Positions 890 to 35,494 of a DNA stretch of 36,040 bases are shown one piece after another. How positions within the stretch are numbered: the stretch's first letter is position 1; each line of letters starts with the position of its first letter. Location: the IMG/VR virus record IMGVR_UViG_2209111021_000004, positions 1 to 36,040 of that record; one strand, 5' to 3'. This stretch comes from a virus. A program made the position numbers and the translations under genes. The notes under the pieces are model-generated. The model was not told the DNA's origin, searched no databases, and worked only from the letters and a program-made list of their open reading frames with translations.

Positions 890-965
890 GCGCCCGTAGC
901 TCAATGGATAGAGTACTGCCCTCCGAAGGCAGGGGTTGCTGGTTCGATCCCAGCCGGGCGCACCA
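890..965 (+). tRNA. tRNA-Arg (anticodon CCG)
   Basis: The sequence folds as a complete cloverleaf. The acceptor stem is GCGCCCG/CGGGCGC (890-896 with 955-961). The D stem is GCTC/GAGT, which closes with a terminal C-G missing or weak. The anticodon stem is CTGCC/GGCAG around loop CTCCGAA (921-927), so the anticodon at 923-925 is CCG. A five-base variable loop (933-937) follows, then T stem GCTGG/CCAGC with loop TTCGATC, then ACCA encoded to 965. It decodes CGG arginine codons. The prophage entered at its 3' half, and the phage copy of the sequence keeps the gene intact. Confidence 0.97.
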
Positions 966-966
966 A
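921..966 (+). other. attL core (46-bp direct repeat)
   Basis: The bases from the tRNA anticodon loop through CCA plus one A (ctccgaaggc ... caccaa) recur without mismatch at 35449-35494. The block starts in the anticodon loop, a common crossover point for tyrosine integrases that use tRNA genes. The left copy is the one inside the functional tRNA gene. Confidence 0.96.
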
Positions 967-8315: not shown

Positions 8316-8651
8316 ATGATCGATGACCACCTGTTCGAAGCCATGAAACGCCTGCGAGAATGGGCGAAACATCGTTCCTACGTGCGGCGGCTGTGGGTGT
8401 TTGGCAGTCGTATCAAGGGCATCCAGCGTGACGACAGTGACCTTGACGTAGCAATGGAGATTGATCCTCTCGGCAACGATGAAACAGTGGACGTCGCGTG
8501 GGTCTGTCATCGCCAAGAATGGGAAGCCGACATGACGCAACTCGTGTCATATAAAGTACAGCTTCATGCGTACGATATCGCGAACCGGGCATCCCCCATC
8601 GTCGGATATGTCGACTGCTGCGCAGCGCTAGTCTACGAGCGCACTCCGTAA
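8316..8651 (+). CDS. solitary MNT-type nucleotidyltransferase
   Basis: This 111-aa protein carries the signature of minimal nucleotidyltransferases: LWVFGSRIKG (residues 26-35) and SDLDVAMEI (41-49), the GS-x-G and DxD motifs that bind nucleotide and metal. MNT proteins are usually antitoxins of HEPN toxins, acting by transfer of AMP to the toxin. Here no HEPN gene follows: the next gene is a 75-aa membrane-anchored protein. It may act alone, on a host or phage protein, or have lost its partner. It lies 36 bp after the exported-protein gene and may share its transcript. Confidence 0.8.
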   Translation: MIDDHLFEAMKRLREWAKHRSYVRRLWVFGSRIKGIQRDDSDLDVAMEIDPLGNDETVDVAWVCHRQEWEADMTQLVSYKVQLHAYDIANRASPIVGYVDCCAALVYERTP

Positions 8652-26930: not shown

Positions 26931-28712
26931 ATGCTAGAAACCGCCGACATTGCCCCCGCACTCGAATCGAATGCCGACCCACGCCGTATAGCCCGCGCGC
27001 TTTACTGGCAGGGTTGGCGCATCTCGTCTATCGCTCGGCACATTGGCGAAAAGCGGCCGACCGTTGAGGCATGGAAACAGCGCGACAAGTGGGCCGAGGC
27101 GACGCCGATCGAGCGCATCGAGTCGTCGCTCGAAACGCGCCTTGCGGTGCTCATTGCAAAGGACAGGAAAGACGGCCAGGACTTCAAAGAAATCGACTTG
27201 CTCGGCCGGCAGTTCGAGCGCACGGCGCGCGTGCGCAAGTACGGCGAAACGGGGAAAGAGAGCGACCTAAACCCGGCCATCGAGGCACGCAACACGGCGC
27301 CGCGCAAAGAGAAACCCGCGCAAAACGAATTCAGCGACGAGCAGGCCGAGCGGCTTCGCGAGGCCTTTCTAGATTCGTTGTTCGGCTATCAAAAGGTGTG
27401 GTATCGGCAGGGCGAGCAGCGCACGCGAAACATTCTCAAGTCGCGGCAGATCGGCGCGACGTGGTATTTCGCCCGCGAGGCACTAGACGACGCGATCGGC
27501 ACGGGCCGCAATCAGATTTTCTTGTCGGCCAGCAAGGCACAGGCGCACGTATTCAAGCAATACATTCGGCAGTTTGCCGCCGAGGCCGCAGACGTTGAGC
27601 TGAAAGGCGACCCGATCGTTTTGCCGAACGGTGCCGAAATGATCTTTCTCGGCACTAACTCGCGCACCGCGCAGAGCTATCACGGCAATTTCTATTTCGA
27701 TGAATATTTTTGGGTTGGCGGTTTTCAGCAGCTCAACAAAGTCGCGTCGGGCATGGCGATGCACAAGAAATGGCGCAAGACGTATTTCTCTACGCCATCG
27801 AGCATCGCGCACGGTGCCTATACATTCTGGACTGGCGAGCACGCCAACAAGGGCCGCTCGAAAGACAAGCATGTGCATTTCGACGTAACGCACAAGGCAC
27901 TCGCCGGCGGCCGGCTTTGCGAGGATCGCCAGTGGCGCCAGATCGTCACCGTCGAGGATGCCGTCGCCGGCGGTTGCGACCTGTTCGATATCGACGAGCT
28001 GCGCCTTGAATACAGTCCAGAGGAATACGCCAATCTGTTGATGTGTCAGTTTATCGACGATACGGCGTCGATATTCCCGCTCGCGGACTTACAGCGCTGC
28101 ATGGTCGACTCGTGGGAAGAATGGGCCGACGACTTCAAACCGCTCGCGCCCCGCCCTTTCGGCTTTCGGCCGGTTTGGGTCGGCTATGACCCTGCACTAT
28201 CCGGCGACTCGGCCGGCTTGATCGTCGTCGCACCGCCGGCGGTGCCTGGTGGCAAGTTTCGCGTGCTGCACAAGTGCCAATGGCGCGGCATGGATTTCGA
28301 GGCACAGGCCGAGGCGATACGCACAATCACAAAGCAATACAACGCCGCCTATATGGCGATCGATACGACAGGCATCGGCCAGGGCGTCTATCAGCTCGTC
28401 AGGCAGTTCTATCCGAACGCGATCGCACTCAACTATTCGCCAGAGGTTAAAGGCCGCCTGGTGCTCAAAGGCTTGTCGGTGATCGGCAAGGGCCGGCTCG
28501 AATTCGATGCTGGATGGACCGACTTAGCGCAATCGTTCATGGCGATTCGCAAAACCATGACGGCGAGCGGAAAGAAAGTCACTTATGAAGCGAGCCGTAA
28601 CGAGGAAACAGGACACGCTGACCTTGCATGGGCGTGCCTGCACGCGCTCGGCAATGAACCGTTAGAGGGCGTCACCGCCAACAATACAGGCTTTATGGAG
28701 TTCTCAAATTGA
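26931..28712 (+). CDS. P: terminase large subunit P
   Basis: The ATG at 26931 gives 593 aa, against 590 for P2 gpP, and the two match along their whole length. The N-terminal HTH region (ARALYWQGWRISSIARHIGE) should help bind DNA. The ATPase has a variant Walker A LKSRQIGATWYF (169-180) and Walker B NFYFDEYFW (about 253-261). The nuclease half has VGYDPALSGDSAG, AAYMAIDTTGIG and ETGHADLAWA with the expected acidic residues. It cuts cos and pumps DNA into the head. A longer frame reaching 26673 overlaps O and is rejected. It is divergent from O and coupled to Q. Confidence 0.96.
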   Translation: MLETADIAPALESNADPRRIARALYWQGWRISSIARHIGEKRPTVEAWKQRDKWAEATPIERIESSLETRLAVLIAKDRKDGQDFKEIDLLGRQFERTARVRKYGETGKESDLNPAIEARNTAPRKEKPAQNEFSDEQAERLREAFLDSLFGYQKVWYRQGEQRTRNILKSRQIGATWYFAREALDDAIGTGRNQIFLSASKAQAHVFKQYIRQFAAEAADVELKGDPIVLPNGAEMIFLGTNSRTAQSYHGNFYFDEYFWVGGFQQLNKVASGMAMHKKWRKTYFSTPSSIAHGAYTFWTGEHANKGRSKDKHVHFDVTHKALAGGRLCEDRQWRQIVTVEDAVAGGCDLFDIDELRLEYSPEEYANLLMCQFIDDTASIFPLADLQRCMVDSWEEWADDFKPLAPRPFGFRPVWVGYDPALSGDSAGLIVVAPPAVPGGKFRVLHKCQWRGMDFEAQAEAIRTITKQYNAAYMAIDTTGIGQGVYQLVRQFYPNAIALNYSPEVKGRLVLKGLSVIGKGRLEFDAGWTDLAQSFMAIRKTMTASGKKVTYEASRNEETGHADLAWACLHALGNEPLEGVTANNTGFMEFSN

Positions 28713-29752
28713 GCAAGCGAAACCGCAACATGCACGCCGCACCGCCGGCGCCGGCCGCACCGTCGACGGCGCCGAGGGCTGAGGCCTTCACCTTCGGCGA
28801 CCCGGTGCCGGTGATGGATCGAGCCGAGATTCTTGATTACGTCGAAACCTGGTCGGCCGGCAACTGGTTCGAGCCGCCGGTGTCCTGGTCGGGCCTGGCT
28901 AAGACATTCCGCGCCGGCGTCCATCACGGCTCGGCGATCTACTTCAAACGCAACGTGCTATCGGCGACGTTCATTCCGCACAGGTTGCTCACGCGCGAGG
29001 TGTTCGATAAGTGGGCGCTCGATTTCCTCACGTTCGGCAATGGGTATCTTGAGCTGCGAAAGAACCGGCTAGGCGGGCCGCTCGCGCTGGAGCGTGCGCC
29101 GGCCAAGTACATGCGCCGCGCGACGGACCTACTGCGCTTCTATCAGGTCAACGGGTGGCAAACGTCGCACGAGTTCGCGGCCGGGACCGTGCATCACTTG
29201 ATGGAACCGGACATTAATCAGGAGGTGTACGGCCTGCCCGAATATCTCGGCGCCCTGCACGCGGCATGGTTGAACGAGTCGGCGACGCTATTTCGCCGGC
29301 GGTATTACGAGAATGGTTCGCATGCGGGTTTCATCCTGTATATGACGGATGCGGCGCAGTCGCAAACCGATGTCGACGACATGCGCGCAGCGTTGAAAAA
29401 CAGCAAGGGGCCAGGCAACTTCCGAAACCTGTTTATGTACGCGCCGAATGGCAAGAAAGACGGCATCCAGCTTATTCCCGTTTCCGAGGTCACGGCGAAA
29501 GATGAGTTTTTTAATATCAAGAATGTGACGCGCGACGACTTGCTCGCGGCGCATCGCATCCCCCCGCAGCTCATGGGGATCGTGCCGAGCAATACCGGCG
29601 GGTTTGGCGCGGCCGACACGGCCGCCGAGGTATTCGGGCGCAATGAAATCGAGCCGTTGCAGCGGCGATTCTCACAGCTCAATGAGTGGATCGGCGACGA
29701 GGTTGTGCGCTTCAATCCGTATTCGATCAAGACGCCGAAGGCCGCCGCGTAA
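28709..29752 (+). CDS. Q: portal protein Q
   Basis: This 347-aa protein matches P2 gpQ (344 aa): FTFGDPVPVMDRAEILDYVE, WFEPPVSWSGLAKTFRAGVH, HHLMEPDINQEVYGLPEYLG and RIPPQLMGIVPSNTGGFGAA. It forms the portal ring at the head vertex. The start is TTG, overlapping the P stop as TTGA, with GGAG 9 bases upstream. The first 20 residues are Ala/Pro-rich. Confidence 0.96.
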   Translation: MSKRNRNMHAAPPAPAAPSTAPRAEAFTFGDPVPVMDRAEILDYVETWSAGNWFEPPVSWSGLAKTFRAGVHHGSAIYFKRNVLSATFIPHRLLTREVFDKWALDFLTFGNGYLELRKNRLGGPLALERAPAKYMRRATDLLRFYQVNGWQTSHEFAAGTVHHLMEPDINQEVYGLPEYLGALHAAWLNESATLFRRRYYENGSHAGFILYMTDAAQSQTDVDDMRAALKNSKGPGNFRNLFMYAPNGKKDGIQLIPVSEVTAKDEFFNIKNVTRDDLLAAHRIPPQLMGIVPSNTGGFGAADTAAEVFGRNEIEPLQRRFSQLNEWIGDEVVRFNPYSIKTPKAAA

Positions 29753-29921: not shown

Positions 29922-30635
29922 TCAAGTAACTCCGGCCAAGTCCTTCTGTAACCGGACCTTCTCTCGAACGGATAGCATGTCCATCAGGAAATTTTGCACG
30001 TTCACGTGTAAACCGAGGTAGGTCTCATGCTCGGAAAAAAGACACAGCGCAAGGCATGCTTTGAGAACGGCGTGCAGATCCTTGGTCACTGCGGTGCTCT
30101 GGTCCTCCGAGAGACGAATATCTTCCAGAGTTGCGCGGAGGATTAGCGTTTTCGACGAGGTACTATGAACCGCAGACGACAGTTCGGCGTATAGGCGTGA
30201 AAGATCGTCGGCAAGTGGCTTGAGATTTCCCTGGAAGCAGTCTAACCACCCGCAGTGTTCCCTCAGGGCCTTCATTTCAAGGTAATACTTCGAGCGCGTA
30301 TGGAGCCAACCATACTCGACCGGATGGTCGCGGAAGTAGTGGTGGCGCCAAAAATTTTCGATAACGCTTCGTAAGTAGAAGCGAGCCCCGCGTGCGTCGC
30401 CCCCGATGAGTGCATGGACGAGATGCACCGTATCAGATGACAACTCTTGAAGAAAAATCCGACGATGCGCGTCGATCGAACCCATTGCCCGGGACATCAG
30501 AGAAAAGCAGATGGCGTACTTGTGTGCCGACACGAGCAATGGTCGTTGCTTTCCCGCGTTTGCCAGCCGCCCTTTCTCTGCGCCATCCCAATAGGCTTTG
30601 AAATCTTGTTTAATCTGCAGTGCAAAGGGCGACAC
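29922..30635 (-). CDS. cargo operon gene 3, hypothetical 237 aa
   Basis: The family is not recognised. The product looks all-helical and soluble, with dense charged and aromatic residues: LRSVIENFWRHHYFRDHP (88-105), then SRLYAELSSAVHSTSSKTLI (146-165). The Y..LS..VH pattern is reminiscent of helical HEPN-like proteins in abortive-infection cassettes, but the canonical RxxxxH motif is not evident. This comparison is weak and is inference. The GTG start overlaps the upstream stop as TAGTG, with AAGGAG seven to eight bases before it, so the start is well supported. Base composition is lower in GC than in the phage core, a sign of separate acquisition. Confidence 0.75.
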   Translation of the reverse strand: MSPFALQIKQDFKAYWDGAEKGRLANAGKQRPLLVSAHKYAICFSLMSRAMGSIDAHRRIFLQELSSDTVHLVHALIGGDARGARFYLRSVIENFWRHHYFRDHPVEYGWLHTRSKYYLEMKALREHCGWLDCFQGNLKPLADDLSRLYAELSSAVHSTSSKTLILRATLEDIRLSEDQSTAVTKDLHAVLKACLALCLFSEHETYLGLHVNVQNFLMDMLSVREKVRLQKDLAGVT

Positions 30636-31189
30636 TACAGCTCCTTAATAAGATTTTTCCACTGTGAAACAAAATTGTGTGGTCTCTTCGCCAACTCATC
30701 GGAAAGTACCTTGCGAAATTTATTCCTGCTGGACTCGTCCAGCGAGGCAACATGGCGAATGACTCGTTTTATGTAGCGGCCACGGCCCTCTTTGGACTGA
30801 AGTTGTAGGTTGCCCGGGACCACCTTCACGACGTCCTGGGTCCTCGGAAATATGTCCCGGTCGTTCAGAAGCTTCTCAAGAGACTCACCGCTCAGCGAGT
30901 CTTTTCGCGAGGTCTTTGGGGGCGACGAAACTAGTCGGGTCGACGAAGACATTGGGGGCAAGGACGGCAGCCGTGGACCTGCGCGTTCGGCGCTAGGAAC
31001 ATTCTTAGCTGTCTCTACGACGCCATGAAGCATCATGAGCGCGTCTATTGCCTTTGCGATACCTCGATCATCTCTTGCAACCAGATTTTCATGTATGGCT
31101 TTGAGCTCGGAATCTGTAAATTCAGCGGCGAGCTCGTAGAGCCGGGCCACCAAGGAAAGATATTTTTGACGGAGAGACGAATCATTCAT
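30635..31189 (-). CDS. cargo operon gene 2, hypothetical 184 aa
   Basis: The family is not recognised. Residues 1-65 look helical (LRQKYLSLVARLYELAAEF, then DSELKAIHENLVARDD). Residues 70-100 are a Pro/Ser-rich linker (SLPPMSSSTRLVSSPPKTSR). Residues 100-184 are a basic second domain (GRGRYIKRVIRHVASLDESS, HNFVSQWKNLIKEL). Two domains with a flexible linker, next to a ParA-type ATPase, resemble the layout of adaptor partners that stimulate such ATPases, as ParB-like proteins do. This is inference. It is coupled to the ATPase gene by an ATGA overlap. Confidence 0.75.
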   Translation of the reverse strand: MNDSSLRQKYLSLVARLYELAAEFTDSELKAIHENLVARDDRGIAKAIDALMMLHGVVETAKNVPSAERAGPRLPSLPPMSSSTRLVSSPPKTSRKDSLSGESLEKLLNDRDIFPRTQDVVKVVPGNLQLQSKEGRGRYIKRVIRHVASLDESSRNKFRKVLSDELAKRPHNFVSQWKNLIKEL

Positions 31190-32031
31190 AGTTCGTTGGC
31201 CCTCTGAACAAATTCGGCGCAGATTCCAGTAAGTGCATCTCGGACACCAGCAAGTTTTCCGCCCTTATTGATAAATTGCAGCGGGGTATTCGTTTCCACG
31301 GCCTCTGCAACGCCTGTCGTCTGGACGATCATGTGCTCAAAAACCTCGCCTGGGTATTCCCGTCTGACTTGGTTCATGGTCGCCCGCATCGCATCCGTCT
31401 GCCTAACTTGGGTGAACACCAGTCCAAGCCTATGCAGTTCTTGACCAGAGCGTTCTTCGTAATCCTGCATCGCACGTTCTAGAAGAGGCAAGCCTAGTAC
31501 CGACAGGGGATCCGGTTTTACTGGCACGAGATAAGCATCAGAAGCGAGAAAGGCGCTATAACTAAATAAAGAAGCGGTCGGAGGGCAATCAATCAGGATG
31601 TAATCATAGTCGGCCCGAACTTTTTCCAGAAAAACTCGCAGTCGATTTTCCGTTCCTCTCGGAGCTGCGTCCAATTTCATAAGATCGAGAATGGACGGCA
31701 AGATATCGAGCTTAAGCCCGTTCTTCCTGATCGGAATTATTGTGGTTTTAGGCGTGGGTTTACTCGCAGACGACTGCGCACTCGCCGTCGCGCCATGATA
31801 AGAAGCTGCAACTGGGGGTTGGAACACGCTGAGTATCGTATGCTTGGCTCTTACCCAAGCGAGGTACTCAGTGGCGTTAATTACCCATTGGGTGGCATTG
31901 AACTGCGGATCGATATCCACCAACAAAACCCGGTGCTTCTTCGCAAGCTCCCATGCAAGCCCGACGGCCAGCGTGGTCTTGCCGACGCCCCCTTTCATGT
32001 TGATTAGTGAAACGATCTTCGCACCAACCAT
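31186..32031 (-). CDS. cargo operon gene 1, ParA-like ATPase
   Basis: This 281-aa protein is a P-loop ATPase of the ParA/MinD group. The deviant Walker A is MKGGVGKTT (12-20) with the signature Lys13. Walker A' is VLLVDIDPQFNAT (34-46), and Walker B is YILIDCPPTASLF (about 142-155). An insertion of about 35 residues rich in Ser/Ala/Pro (ATASAQSSASKPTPKT) lies at about 80-95. There is no N-terminal HTH, so it is the small, type Ib/chromosomal-like form. A stable integrated phage does not need partition, and no parS-like array is seen, so the ATPase more likely serves the two coupled downstream genes. GGAGG lies four bases before the ATG. Confidence 0.9.
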   Translation of the reverse strand: MVGAKIVSLINMKGGVGKTTLAVGLAWELAKKHRVLLVDIDPQFNATQWVINATEYLAWVRAKHTILSVFQPPVAASYHGATASAQSSASKPTPKTTIIPIRKNGLKLDILPSILDLMKLDAAPRGTENRLRVFLEKVRADYDYILIDCPPTASLFSYSAFLASDAYLVPVKPDPLSVLGLPLLERAMQDYEERSGQELHRLGLVFTQVRQTDAMRATMNQVRREYPGEVFEHMIVQTTGVAEAVETNTPLQFINKGGKLAGVRDALTGICAEFVQRANEL

Positions 32032-32770: not shown

Positions 32771-33304
32771 TCAGCAATCTCCTTCATGATCCCACGTCAT
32801 GCCCACGTCGACTTCGACCGATTGCACTGTATTGAATAAATCTTTACCGGAATATACCTCCGGTAAGTTGATTCTGCCGATCAGTCGGCAAACATCCCGG
32901 GTTAACGACACATTCTGATAGACGATGCTCTGAGGGCCGCCTCCGGCATTTTTGAAAACCATCGTCAAATAGCAACTGTGCGTTCCCTTGTTATTCTGCG
33001 TACTGTTATATTGCGTGAAGGCCGCTTGCGCGCCTGTCCAAAAGGTCTGCCTACCGTTTGCTGTTATCTGATAACGGGTAACGGTGACCAAAATGTCCAA
33101 CAGCGTGAGTCGCAATTGCCCATCCGGTAATCTGTACTCATAAACCGGCGCAGGAATAACTTTGTTTCCTGCGACTTCAAAGCCGCCTGGCAGCGAAGGG
33201 ATTGAACCAAAATCGTTTCCATCGAGCGTTGCTACCTCGAGATTGGGAAGGCTTGTTGTAAACATGGGAATGTTTAGCGGCAACACGATCTCCTGCGTTT
33301 TCAT
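32771..33304 (-). CDS. orphan cargo gene, hypothetical 177 aa
   Basis: The family is not recognised. The ATG at 33304 has a near-perfect RBS (AAGGAGAGTCAA before the ATG), which makes the gene credible and sets the start. A longer frame to 33349 lacks one. The product is rich in Val, Thr, Asn, Gln and Tyr (for example LRLTLLDILVTVTRYQITAN and FTQYNSTQNNKG) and is probably mostly beta. It has no signal peptide or membrane helix and has three cysteines. GC content is well below that of the phage core. A short dyad CTTAG-N10-CTAAG (33353-33372) with a minus-strand CATAAA lies upstream and may be its promoter or operator. Confidence 0.7.
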   Translation of the reverse strand: MKTQEIVLPLNIPMFTTSLPNLEVATLDGNDFGSIPSLPGGFEVAGNKVIPAPVYEYRLPDGQLRLTLLDILVTVTRYQITANGRQTFWTGAQAAFTQYNSTQNNKGTHSCYLTMVFKNAGGGPQSIVYQNVSLTRDVCRLIGRINLPEVYSGKDLFNTVQSVEVDVGMTWDHEGDC

Positions 33305-34282: not shown

Positions 34283-34363
34283 GGGCAGCGTCGGCGATGA
34301 CTTGGTATGCACGTGTTCCTGTTTGAGGAATCCAGGCATGATTCTCGCGCAGGGAGTGATGAC

Positions 34364-34888
34364 GTGGCGAAGAAGAGCGCAATGGCCGGTGGTGGATTTC
34401 TTGTGAGAGTCGCCGTCGCGACGGGCGTTACTTTTTGCGTGATTTATGGCTTTGAGCTGATCTACGGGAAAGAGGCACCGAGCGCGCCGTTCTTTTGGAT
34501 TCAGATGCTGACTGGCTCGTCATGGCCGACCTGGAAAGACGCCAGCACGAGCAGTCCGCTACTTTTTGCCGTAGCCGCAACCGTCCACGTCATGCTCAAC
34601 ATCGGACCATTTCTTCTGGTCCTTTGGATTGCTTGGACGCTGGTGTCATCTAGGAGAATGAAAATGGAACTTGCTAAAGCCTTTCAGATTCGCGACATGG
34701 ACGTGAAACTGAGGATAAAGAATCTCGTTTTCGCCAAGCTTAGTCCCCAAGAACAAAAGACATTTAGCAGGCGTCTAGATGAAATATTTGATGAGGCAAC
34801 GAGCGAATGGGGCGACGATTTGACCATCGTGGCTGGACCAAAGACCGCGAAGAGAGCACTTGAGGCGCTGGAAGAAAATATACGCTAG
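34364..34888 (+). CDS. two-segment membrane protein, cargo, 174 aa
   Basis: The family is not recognised. The GTG at 34364 has AGGGAG seven bases upstream and is preferred over the in-frame ATG at 34307, which has no RBS. Two membrane helices are clear (about FLVRVAVATGVTFCVIYGFE and MLNIGPFLLVLWIAWTLVSS), separated by about 55 residues. A cytoplasmic C-terminal domain of about 65 residues follows (KAFQIRDMDVKLRIKNLVFA, then SPQEQKTFSRRLDEIFDEAT). It forms a two-gene unit with the 70-aa gene nine bases downstream. A membrane effector with a small soluble partner is a common form for exclusion or abortive-infection cassettes, but this is inference. Confidence 0.72.
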   Translation: MAKKSAMAGGGFLVRVAVATGVTFCVIYGFELIYGKEAPSAPFFWIQMLTGSSWPTWKDASTSSPLLFAVAATVHVMLNIGPFLLVLWIAWTLVSSRRMKMELAKAFQIRDMDVKLRIKNLVFAKLSPQEQKTFSRRLDEIFDEATSEWGDDLTIVAGPKTAKRALEALEENIR

Positions 34889-34897
34889 GGGAATAAA

Positions 34898-35110
34898 ATG
34901 GCTCTCGAACCCTATCATTTCAACATAATGGATGAGTACCTCGAGGAGCTAAGAAAGAAGTATGAGGCTGAACTTTCTCAGCATCCAGCGGGGGCCAAGA
35001 AGGCGATTAGAGATTTGCTGCGGCGGAAGTTCAGGCATCTCGGTAATCCTGGCGCTGAGGACGATGAGGTCGAAGCGTATTTTACGCGGAAGCGTCTCTG
35101 GGACGACTGA
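34898..35110 (+). CDS. small acidic hypothetical protein, 70 aa
   Basis: The family is not recognised. The product is helical and highly charged (MDEYLEELRKKYEAELSQH, KKAIRDLLRRKFRHLG, EDDEVEAYFTRKRLWDD). GGGGA six bases before the ATG supports the start. It lies nine bases after the membrane-protein gene, so the two are co-transcribed and probably act together. Possible roles are an immunity partner, an antitoxin or a cytoplasmic regulator. It is the last phage gene before attR. Confidence 0.7.
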   Translation: MALEPYHFNIMDEYLEELRKKYEAELSQHPAGAKKAIRDLLRRKFRHLGNPGAEDDEVEAYFTRKRLWDD

Positions 35111-35323: not shown

Positions 35324-35343
35324 ATTGCAGCTAAATTGCAGCT
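35324..35343 (+). repeat. arm-type integrase site, right copy
   Basis: An exact copy of the 20-mer at 1013-1032, in the same orientation, 105 bp inside the phage from the attR core. In the circular phage the two copies flank the core on either side, as P and P' arm sites do. The rest of 35111-35448 holds no gene. Confidence 0.65.
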
Positions 35344-35448: not shown

Positions 35449-35494
35449 CTCCGAAGGCAGGGGTTGCTGGTTCGATCCCAGCCGGGCGCACCAA
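35449..35494 (+). other. attR core (46-bp direct repeat)
   Basis: A perfect copy of 921-966. The bases just before it (CGGTAAAA) do not match the tRNA 5' half, so this copy is a 3' tRNA fragment and not a gene. The prophage ends here. Confidence 0.95.

Follow-up and report, generated by a model that had tools for sequence, protein, structure and literature searches.

The pairing of a ParA/Soj-type ATPase with a helical protein has a precedent in the toxin–antitoxin dyad predicted by Anantharaman et al. in 2013 (PMC3710099), in which a ParA/Soj ATPase is joined by a HEPN protein (MAE_18760); among the open-access papers searched on ParA and defense, that prediction was the sole relevant item. 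Two further points of reference come from phages: P2-like phages keep exclusion systems (old/tin and others) beside gene Q (PMC9122126), and KS14, itself a plasmid prophage, encodes a ParA (PMC3091744). We describe here a three-gene operon (the trio) encoding a ParA-type ATPase, a middle protein, and an all-helical protein. It was found in IMGVR_UViG_2209111021_000004, a virus record of 36,040 nt with an integrated P2-like prophage whose nearest named relative is KS14; the whole record is referred to as the window. The preliminary description of this DNA, prepared from its letters, had proposed three coupled open reading frames at 29922-32031, joined by ATGA and TAGTG overlaps and convergent to Q, and these coordinates are exact in the sequence, where the genes lie on the minus strand (Table 1). 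Scanning for promoters and terminators returned sites no commoner than in shuffled sequence.

Table 1. Features of the trio operon and of its carrier prophage, in window coordinates
Feature	Position	Strand	Evidence or remark
Gene 1, ParA/Soj-type P-loop ATPase, 281 aa, ATG start	31186..32031	-	Pfam AAA_31, PHROG 164
Gene 2, middle protein, 184 aa, ATG start	30635..31189	-	homologs in 157 loci (iterative HMM)
Gene 3, all-helical protein, 237 aa, GTG start	29922..30635	-	homologs in 122 loci
Overlap of gene 1 stop with gene 2 start (ATGA)	31186..31189	-	sequence
Overlap of gene 2 stop with gene 3 start (TAGTG)	30633..30637	-	sequence
Tyrosine integrase, 358 aa	1020..2096	-	Pfam Phage_integrase 1.7e-35
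Left att repeat, 46 bp	921..966	+	overlaps 3' end of tRNA-Arg(CCG) 890-965
Right att repeat, 46 bp, identical to left	35449..35494	+	perfect direct repeat
Portal gene Q	28709..29752	+	adjoins trio, convergent with trio operon

The carrier is an integrated prophage, as seen from its tyrosine integrase and the 46-bp att repeats at tRNA-Arg. Its structural genes show ~80% DNA identity to those of the Burkholderia phages KS14 and FLC5 (Kisquattuordecimvirus), and this similarity stops at position 29721, inside the end of Q; the trio region is therefore non-homologous cargo. The place of the trio corresponds to the P2 cargo hotspot beside Q, as had been proposed, while the label "cos-proximal" that was attached to the hotspot follows from adjacency to Q. 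The operon had also been called lower in GC than the phage core, which it is (52.2% for the trio versus 62.2%), but the flank up to attR stands at 54.1%, so that the entire Q–attR cargo arm, and not the trio alone, is GC-poor.

Some other features of this prophage deserve mention. A 20-bp perfect repeat, ATTGCAGCTAAATTGCAGCT, occurs at 1013-1032 and 35324-35343, inside both att ends, and possibly represents integrase arm sites. Three right-arm ORFs at 32771-33304(-), 34307-34888(+), and 34898-35110(+), of 177, 193, and 70 aa, have no Pfam match and lie outside the trio operon, non-adjacent to it. A minimal nucleotidyltransferase of 111 aa (Pfam Polbeta 9.1e-8, NTP_transf_2 1.1e-4) is encoded at 8316-8651(+); it is of the MNT type, the antitoxin type of HEPN–MNT pairs, and no HEPN partner was identified beside its gene.

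Gene 1 has two full-length ParA matches at 36–37% identity, as compared to ~30% for ordinary plasmid ParAs, in Lactococcus phage PLg-TB25 and Escherichia coli, and each is followed by a middle-sized gene and a helical gene of sizes similar to those of the window trio. An alignment of these two ParAs with gene 1 was used to fetch 80 viral and 80 genomic loci, in nearly all of which the ParA gene is followed by a gene of 110–185 aa, with starts overlapping or adjacent, and mostly then by one of 215–270 aa. Iterative HMMs made from the window proteins detected the middle protein in 157 of the fetched loci and gene 3 in 122; these 122 loci (88 non-redundant) hold the complete trio in the same order as the window, which is far above chance. 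The trio resides in prophages, on islands, and elsewhere in chromosomes, the phyla being Bacillota, Pseudomonadota, Bacteroidota, Thermodesulfobacteriota, Myxococcota, Balneolota, Campylobacterota, and Planctomycetota, along with one Aenigmatarchaeota MAG; a further ~80 of the loci are viral, phage, or E. coli ones. Most closely related to the window trio are those from genomes of Stenotrophomonas, Variovorax, Luteibacter, Dyella, and Pseudacidovorax. Because this first sampling was ParA-seeded, we ran reverse scans seeded with gene 3 only, which retrieved 22 viral contigs (several already present in the ParA-seeded set) and one E. coli record; in every case the ParA and middle genes lie upstream of gene 3 (22/22 contigs). 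In a class sample, the trio is rare and patchy (1/369 genomes). Two PLSDB "plasmid" records seem mislabelled: NZ_CP148393.1, a 44.6-kb circular sequence with locus L217, resembles a lambdoid phage genome, and NZ_OL790696.1, with locus L003, is chromosome-sized at 4.8 Mb.

By its motifs, gene 1 is classed as a ParA/MinD-type (SIMIBI) ATPase with the full catalytic set: a deviant Walker A, KGGVGKT, with the signature lysine, and Walker A' and B, with the stretches VDIDPQFNAT and ILIDCPPT. It matches Pfam AAA_31 (2e-35) and CbiA (1.8e-18) and the ParA-like PHROG 164 (1.4e-51), while PADLOC 2.0.0 returned only generic P-loop matches. Walker A begins as early as residue 13, and the AAA_31 match spans residues 5–199, in keeping with the earlier remark that the protein lacks the N-terminal HTH of plasmid ParA. 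Across the subfamily, KGGxGK[TS] falls within the first 60 residues in 143 of 158 ParAs, and at least 9 of the other 15 read KGGVAKT, a P-loop that some trio-lineage ParAs carry in place of KGGVGKT (L097, L101, L103, L104, L105, L109, L110, L121, and L153). In the ParA tree, a single branch (SH-aLRT 99) splits trio ParAs from those that have only a middle gene, and the presence or absence of gene 3 requires one change as compared to 25.3 in shuffles. ParA plus the middle gene thus forms the broader core, to which one large ParA lineage adds gene 3. The separate clade, with a ParA and a middle protein of 160–185 aa that in many cases shares the C-terminal W motif of gene 2, includes Acidobacteriota, Planctomycetota, archaeal MAGs, and others (L113, L116-L118, L124-L127, L130-L134, L136, L139, L141, L145, L149, L152, L155, L157, L159, L160, L162, L163, and L167).

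The 184-aa middle protein had been described as two-domain, and its structure model agrees, with N-terminal helices at 6–58, a disordered linker at ~60–100, and a helical domain at 101–167, followed by a C-terminal helix; pLDDT is 92–96 across most of the core domain and 41–57 across the linker. The C-terminal helix carries W177, which is W in 79 of 89 sequences. Searches of Pfam, PHROG, NCBIfam, and PADLOC 2.0.0 gave no family match, ParB or HTH included, and Foldseek gave no significant fold match. Among close relatives of the window trio, gene 2 is 39–42% identical, gene 3 62–68%, and ParA 74–81%, so that gene 2 evolves fastest; dS was saturated and yielded no dN/dS. This fast divergence suggests that the middle protein faces a changing partner or target, and it is probably an adaptor.

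A ParA with an unassigned partner calls to mind partition or positioning, in which a ParB/McdB-like middle protein would serve with ParA to move or anchor DNA or cargo, and gene 3 would be a co-factor. Membership of gene 1 in the ParA family points this way, as do the many genomes with ParA–middle pairs lacking gene 3 and the example of KS14, from the same phage genus. It had been argued that an integrated prophage needs no partition; the integration is borne out by the integrase and att repeats, but a partition gene would not be absurd in a relative of a plasmid prophage with ParA. Yet the trio sits on integrated elements both here and in E. coli, where it occupies chromosomal islands, and KS14 gp40, at 24.6% identity and in a different operon, is no ortholog of gene 1. 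The preliminary description saw no parS-like array, and none, nor any centromere-like one, was found upstream of the window trio or of five other trios, where only isolated short repeat pairs occur. As the middle protein also lacks a ParB or HTH match and gene 3 carries an active-site-like residue set, we consider partition or positioning highly improbable.

Gene 3 was rightly described as helical: its AlphaFold2 model is a single helical bundle (pLDDT 95.4, pTM 0.92). Over 89 sequences with ~15% overall identity, R89 and H157 are invariant (89/89 each) and E93 (88/89) and Y149 (82/89) nearly so; near-fixed residues against so divergent a background resemble an active site, and gene 3 is the probable effector. 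Direct tblastn with gene 3 found nothing in phage, plasmid, and viral collections because the protein diverges to ~15% identity, and the window protein has no match among PADLOC, Pfam, and NCBIfam models. Nonetheless, 6 of 81 relatives match Pfam DUF5677 (PF18928; best 1.8e-5), and although the window protein itself falls below that model, hhalign of the gene 3 profile with DUF5677 gave E-values of 2e-4 and 1e-4 for local alignments of 43–46 columns, as compared to 0.3–0.9 for controls (0.8–0.9 when reversed). The two have in common an RSxxE helix and a YxxLSxxxH helix, and gene 3 therefore appears to be distantly DUF5677-like. Relatives of gene 3 also match PHROG 7540, 12265, and 22935 (39, 18, and 9 of 81, with a weak match of 0.0085 for the window protein to 7540), unnamed phage families of unknown function; a search with the PHROG 7540 profile in genomes of one class found no match and is uninformative, since it also missed a genome in which a trio is known. 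DUF4145 and Abi_C were considered as relatives and were unconvincing (profile E 0.016 and 0.34).

Could gene 3 be a HEPN protein, as in the predicted dyad? HEPN domains have been described with an Ex3[KR] element around a conserved acidic residue (PMC3710099), and in gene 3 E93 is followed by R/K97 in 80 of 89 sequences. The HEPN RNase motif Rx4-6H is nevertheless found in only 8 of 89, being absent from 81, and membership in HEPN_MAE was rejected, with hhalign to PF18737 sequences at E 0.44, and with the family missing from the 25 commonest Pfam matches to the 81 relatives. Foldseek gave no significant match in the PDB and viral structures; the HEPN structures 6m6u, 6m6w, and 8xeh are in its top 50 at E 0.8–1.5 and TM ~0.33–0.41. 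A HEPN nature for gene 3 is thus possible. These observations bear on a toxin–antitoxin or addiction module, in which a gene 3 toxin would be silenced by ParA and the middle protein and freed on loss of the element; the prophage or island would thereby be retained in the population, with any phage defense as a side effect. The tight coupling of the operon, its residence on integrated elements, the Ex3[KR] element, and the prediction of a ParA/Soj ATPase and a HEPN toxin as a dyad all speak for such a module. It would, however, have three genes, not two, its toxin has neither a HEPN_MAE profile match nor, mostly, the RNase motif, and a ParA–middle core that forms its own clade where gene 3 is lacking is ill-suited to be a simple antitoxin. 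We judge this alternative unlikely, while keeping it in serious view.

Mobility of the trio is clearest in E. coli, where the form with ParA WP_001399639.1 is present in 133 of 5426 complete genomes. It travels as a block of ~2.8 kb (at least 99.3% identical, with values of 99.4–99.8%) that comprises the trio with ~530 bp upstream and 220 bp downstream, and that occurs at three sites with zero similarity outside the block. The first is an island beside type I RM genes and darTG, the second is in a lambdoid prophage, and the third is in a P2-like prophage, between the tail sheath FI and tail-fiber assembly genes. This last site is the Z/fun exclusion locus of P2. With the same gene order in 122 loci and one block at three unrelated sites, the trio does travel as a unit among unrelated prophages and islands. 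Palindromes of the form GTCCGCT...AGCGG(AC) mark both edges of the block in its unrelated surroundings (L006:11568-14350, L174:8047-10832, L175:8047-10832); a cassette mechanism may use them for recombination or insertion. A second E. coli variant (16 genomes) adjoins an integrase in a prophage; for a third, ~50 genomes match part of ParA only; two of these were inspected, and in each a complete trio lies in a prophage remnant, in one case beside a DUF262 gene. Around 39 genomic trios, 142 neighbors were surveyed. A DRT reverse transcriptase, an EcoRII-type restriction pair, and some PADLOC candidates are among them, but so are several integrases and housekeeping genes; the enrichment in defense genes, taken from raw counts, is modest and lends weak support to a defense role.

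Within IMG/VR prophages of 29–68 kb, whose ends are imprecise, the trio lies in the outer quarter in 16 of 39 as compared to 9.75 expected (p ~0.02). Such frequent placement near integrases or prophage edges would suit a regulator of phage biology, for example one that switches lysogeny, induction, or takeover of the carrier phage itself instead of acting on its rivals. The same block in island, lambdoid, and P2-like hosts of E. coli, as well as in non-prophage chromosomal loci, would be hard to reconcile with service to one carrier, and we hold this explanation to be the most improbable of those considered.

We favor, with a probability of about 0.55, the reading of the trio as a mobile three-gene ATPase–adaptor–effector conflict module, for abortive defense or addiction, carried as prophage cargo, because it is a rare, patchy, horizontally moving operon on integrated elements, without a centromere array and with a catalytic-looking gene 3. 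In the mechanism that we infer, the ParA-type ATPase would cycle between an ATP-bound dimer and a monomer, acting as a switch or sensor on DNA; the middle protein would use its helical domain and its C-terminal helix with the tryptophan to couple the ATPase to gene 3, and might be the recognition part because it diverges fastest of the three. A superinfecting phage would disturb the complex, and gene 3 would then stop growth through the R-E-Y-H site on its helical bundle, with RNA- or nucleotide-directed activity as a first guess. The benefit may be phage exclusion or addiction. More tentatively, the trio could represent an undescribed and very widespread class of anti-phage immunity, with a ParA sensor or switch, a fast-evolving adaptor, and a DUF5677-like effector with a new R-E-Y-H active site. 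If so, a common mobile operon that shifts between prophages and defense islands and links a ParA-type ATPase with an unclassified, catalytic-looking protein would give this class of ATPases a new job beyond partition and positioning, and the uncharacterized DUF5677-like and PHROG 7540 families would gain a first context. Natural copies in E. coli make the trio directly testable in laboratory strains.

Set beside the known systems, the trio shares with P2 old/tin and other Q-adjacent exclusion loci (PMC9122126) the cargo place beside the portal gene, whereas the old/tin and trio proteins are unrelated, so that the resemblance is one of place, not of family. With the ParA ATPases of parABS systems, KS14 gp40 included, gene 1 shares the ATPase fold and the deviant Walker A; parABS, however, has a ParB partner and a parS array, while the trio has no ParB match, no parS-like array, other operon partners, and an integrated carrier, and KS14 itself has a serine recombinase where the window prophage has a tyrosine integrase and tRNA att sites. 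In the DUF5677 loci that we sampled, unlike in the trio, neither ParA nor the middle gene is close by. The ParA/Soj–HEPN dyad is like the trio in that one operon encodes both a ParA/Soj ATPase and a helical protein bearing Ex3[KR] and a conserved H, and in its predicted conflict role, but the dyad lacks the middle protein that the trio always has, and its effector belongs to HEPN_MAE, to which gene 3 has no profile match, being mostly without Rx4-6H and without a significant HEPN fold match. The systems in PADLOC, Pfam, and NCBIfam do not cover the trio, genes 2 and 3 being without match there, and no description of it was found in the open-access papers searched, in line with the first supposition that the system is undescribed; still unnamed, it has by these comparisons a substantial chance of being a new kind of defense.
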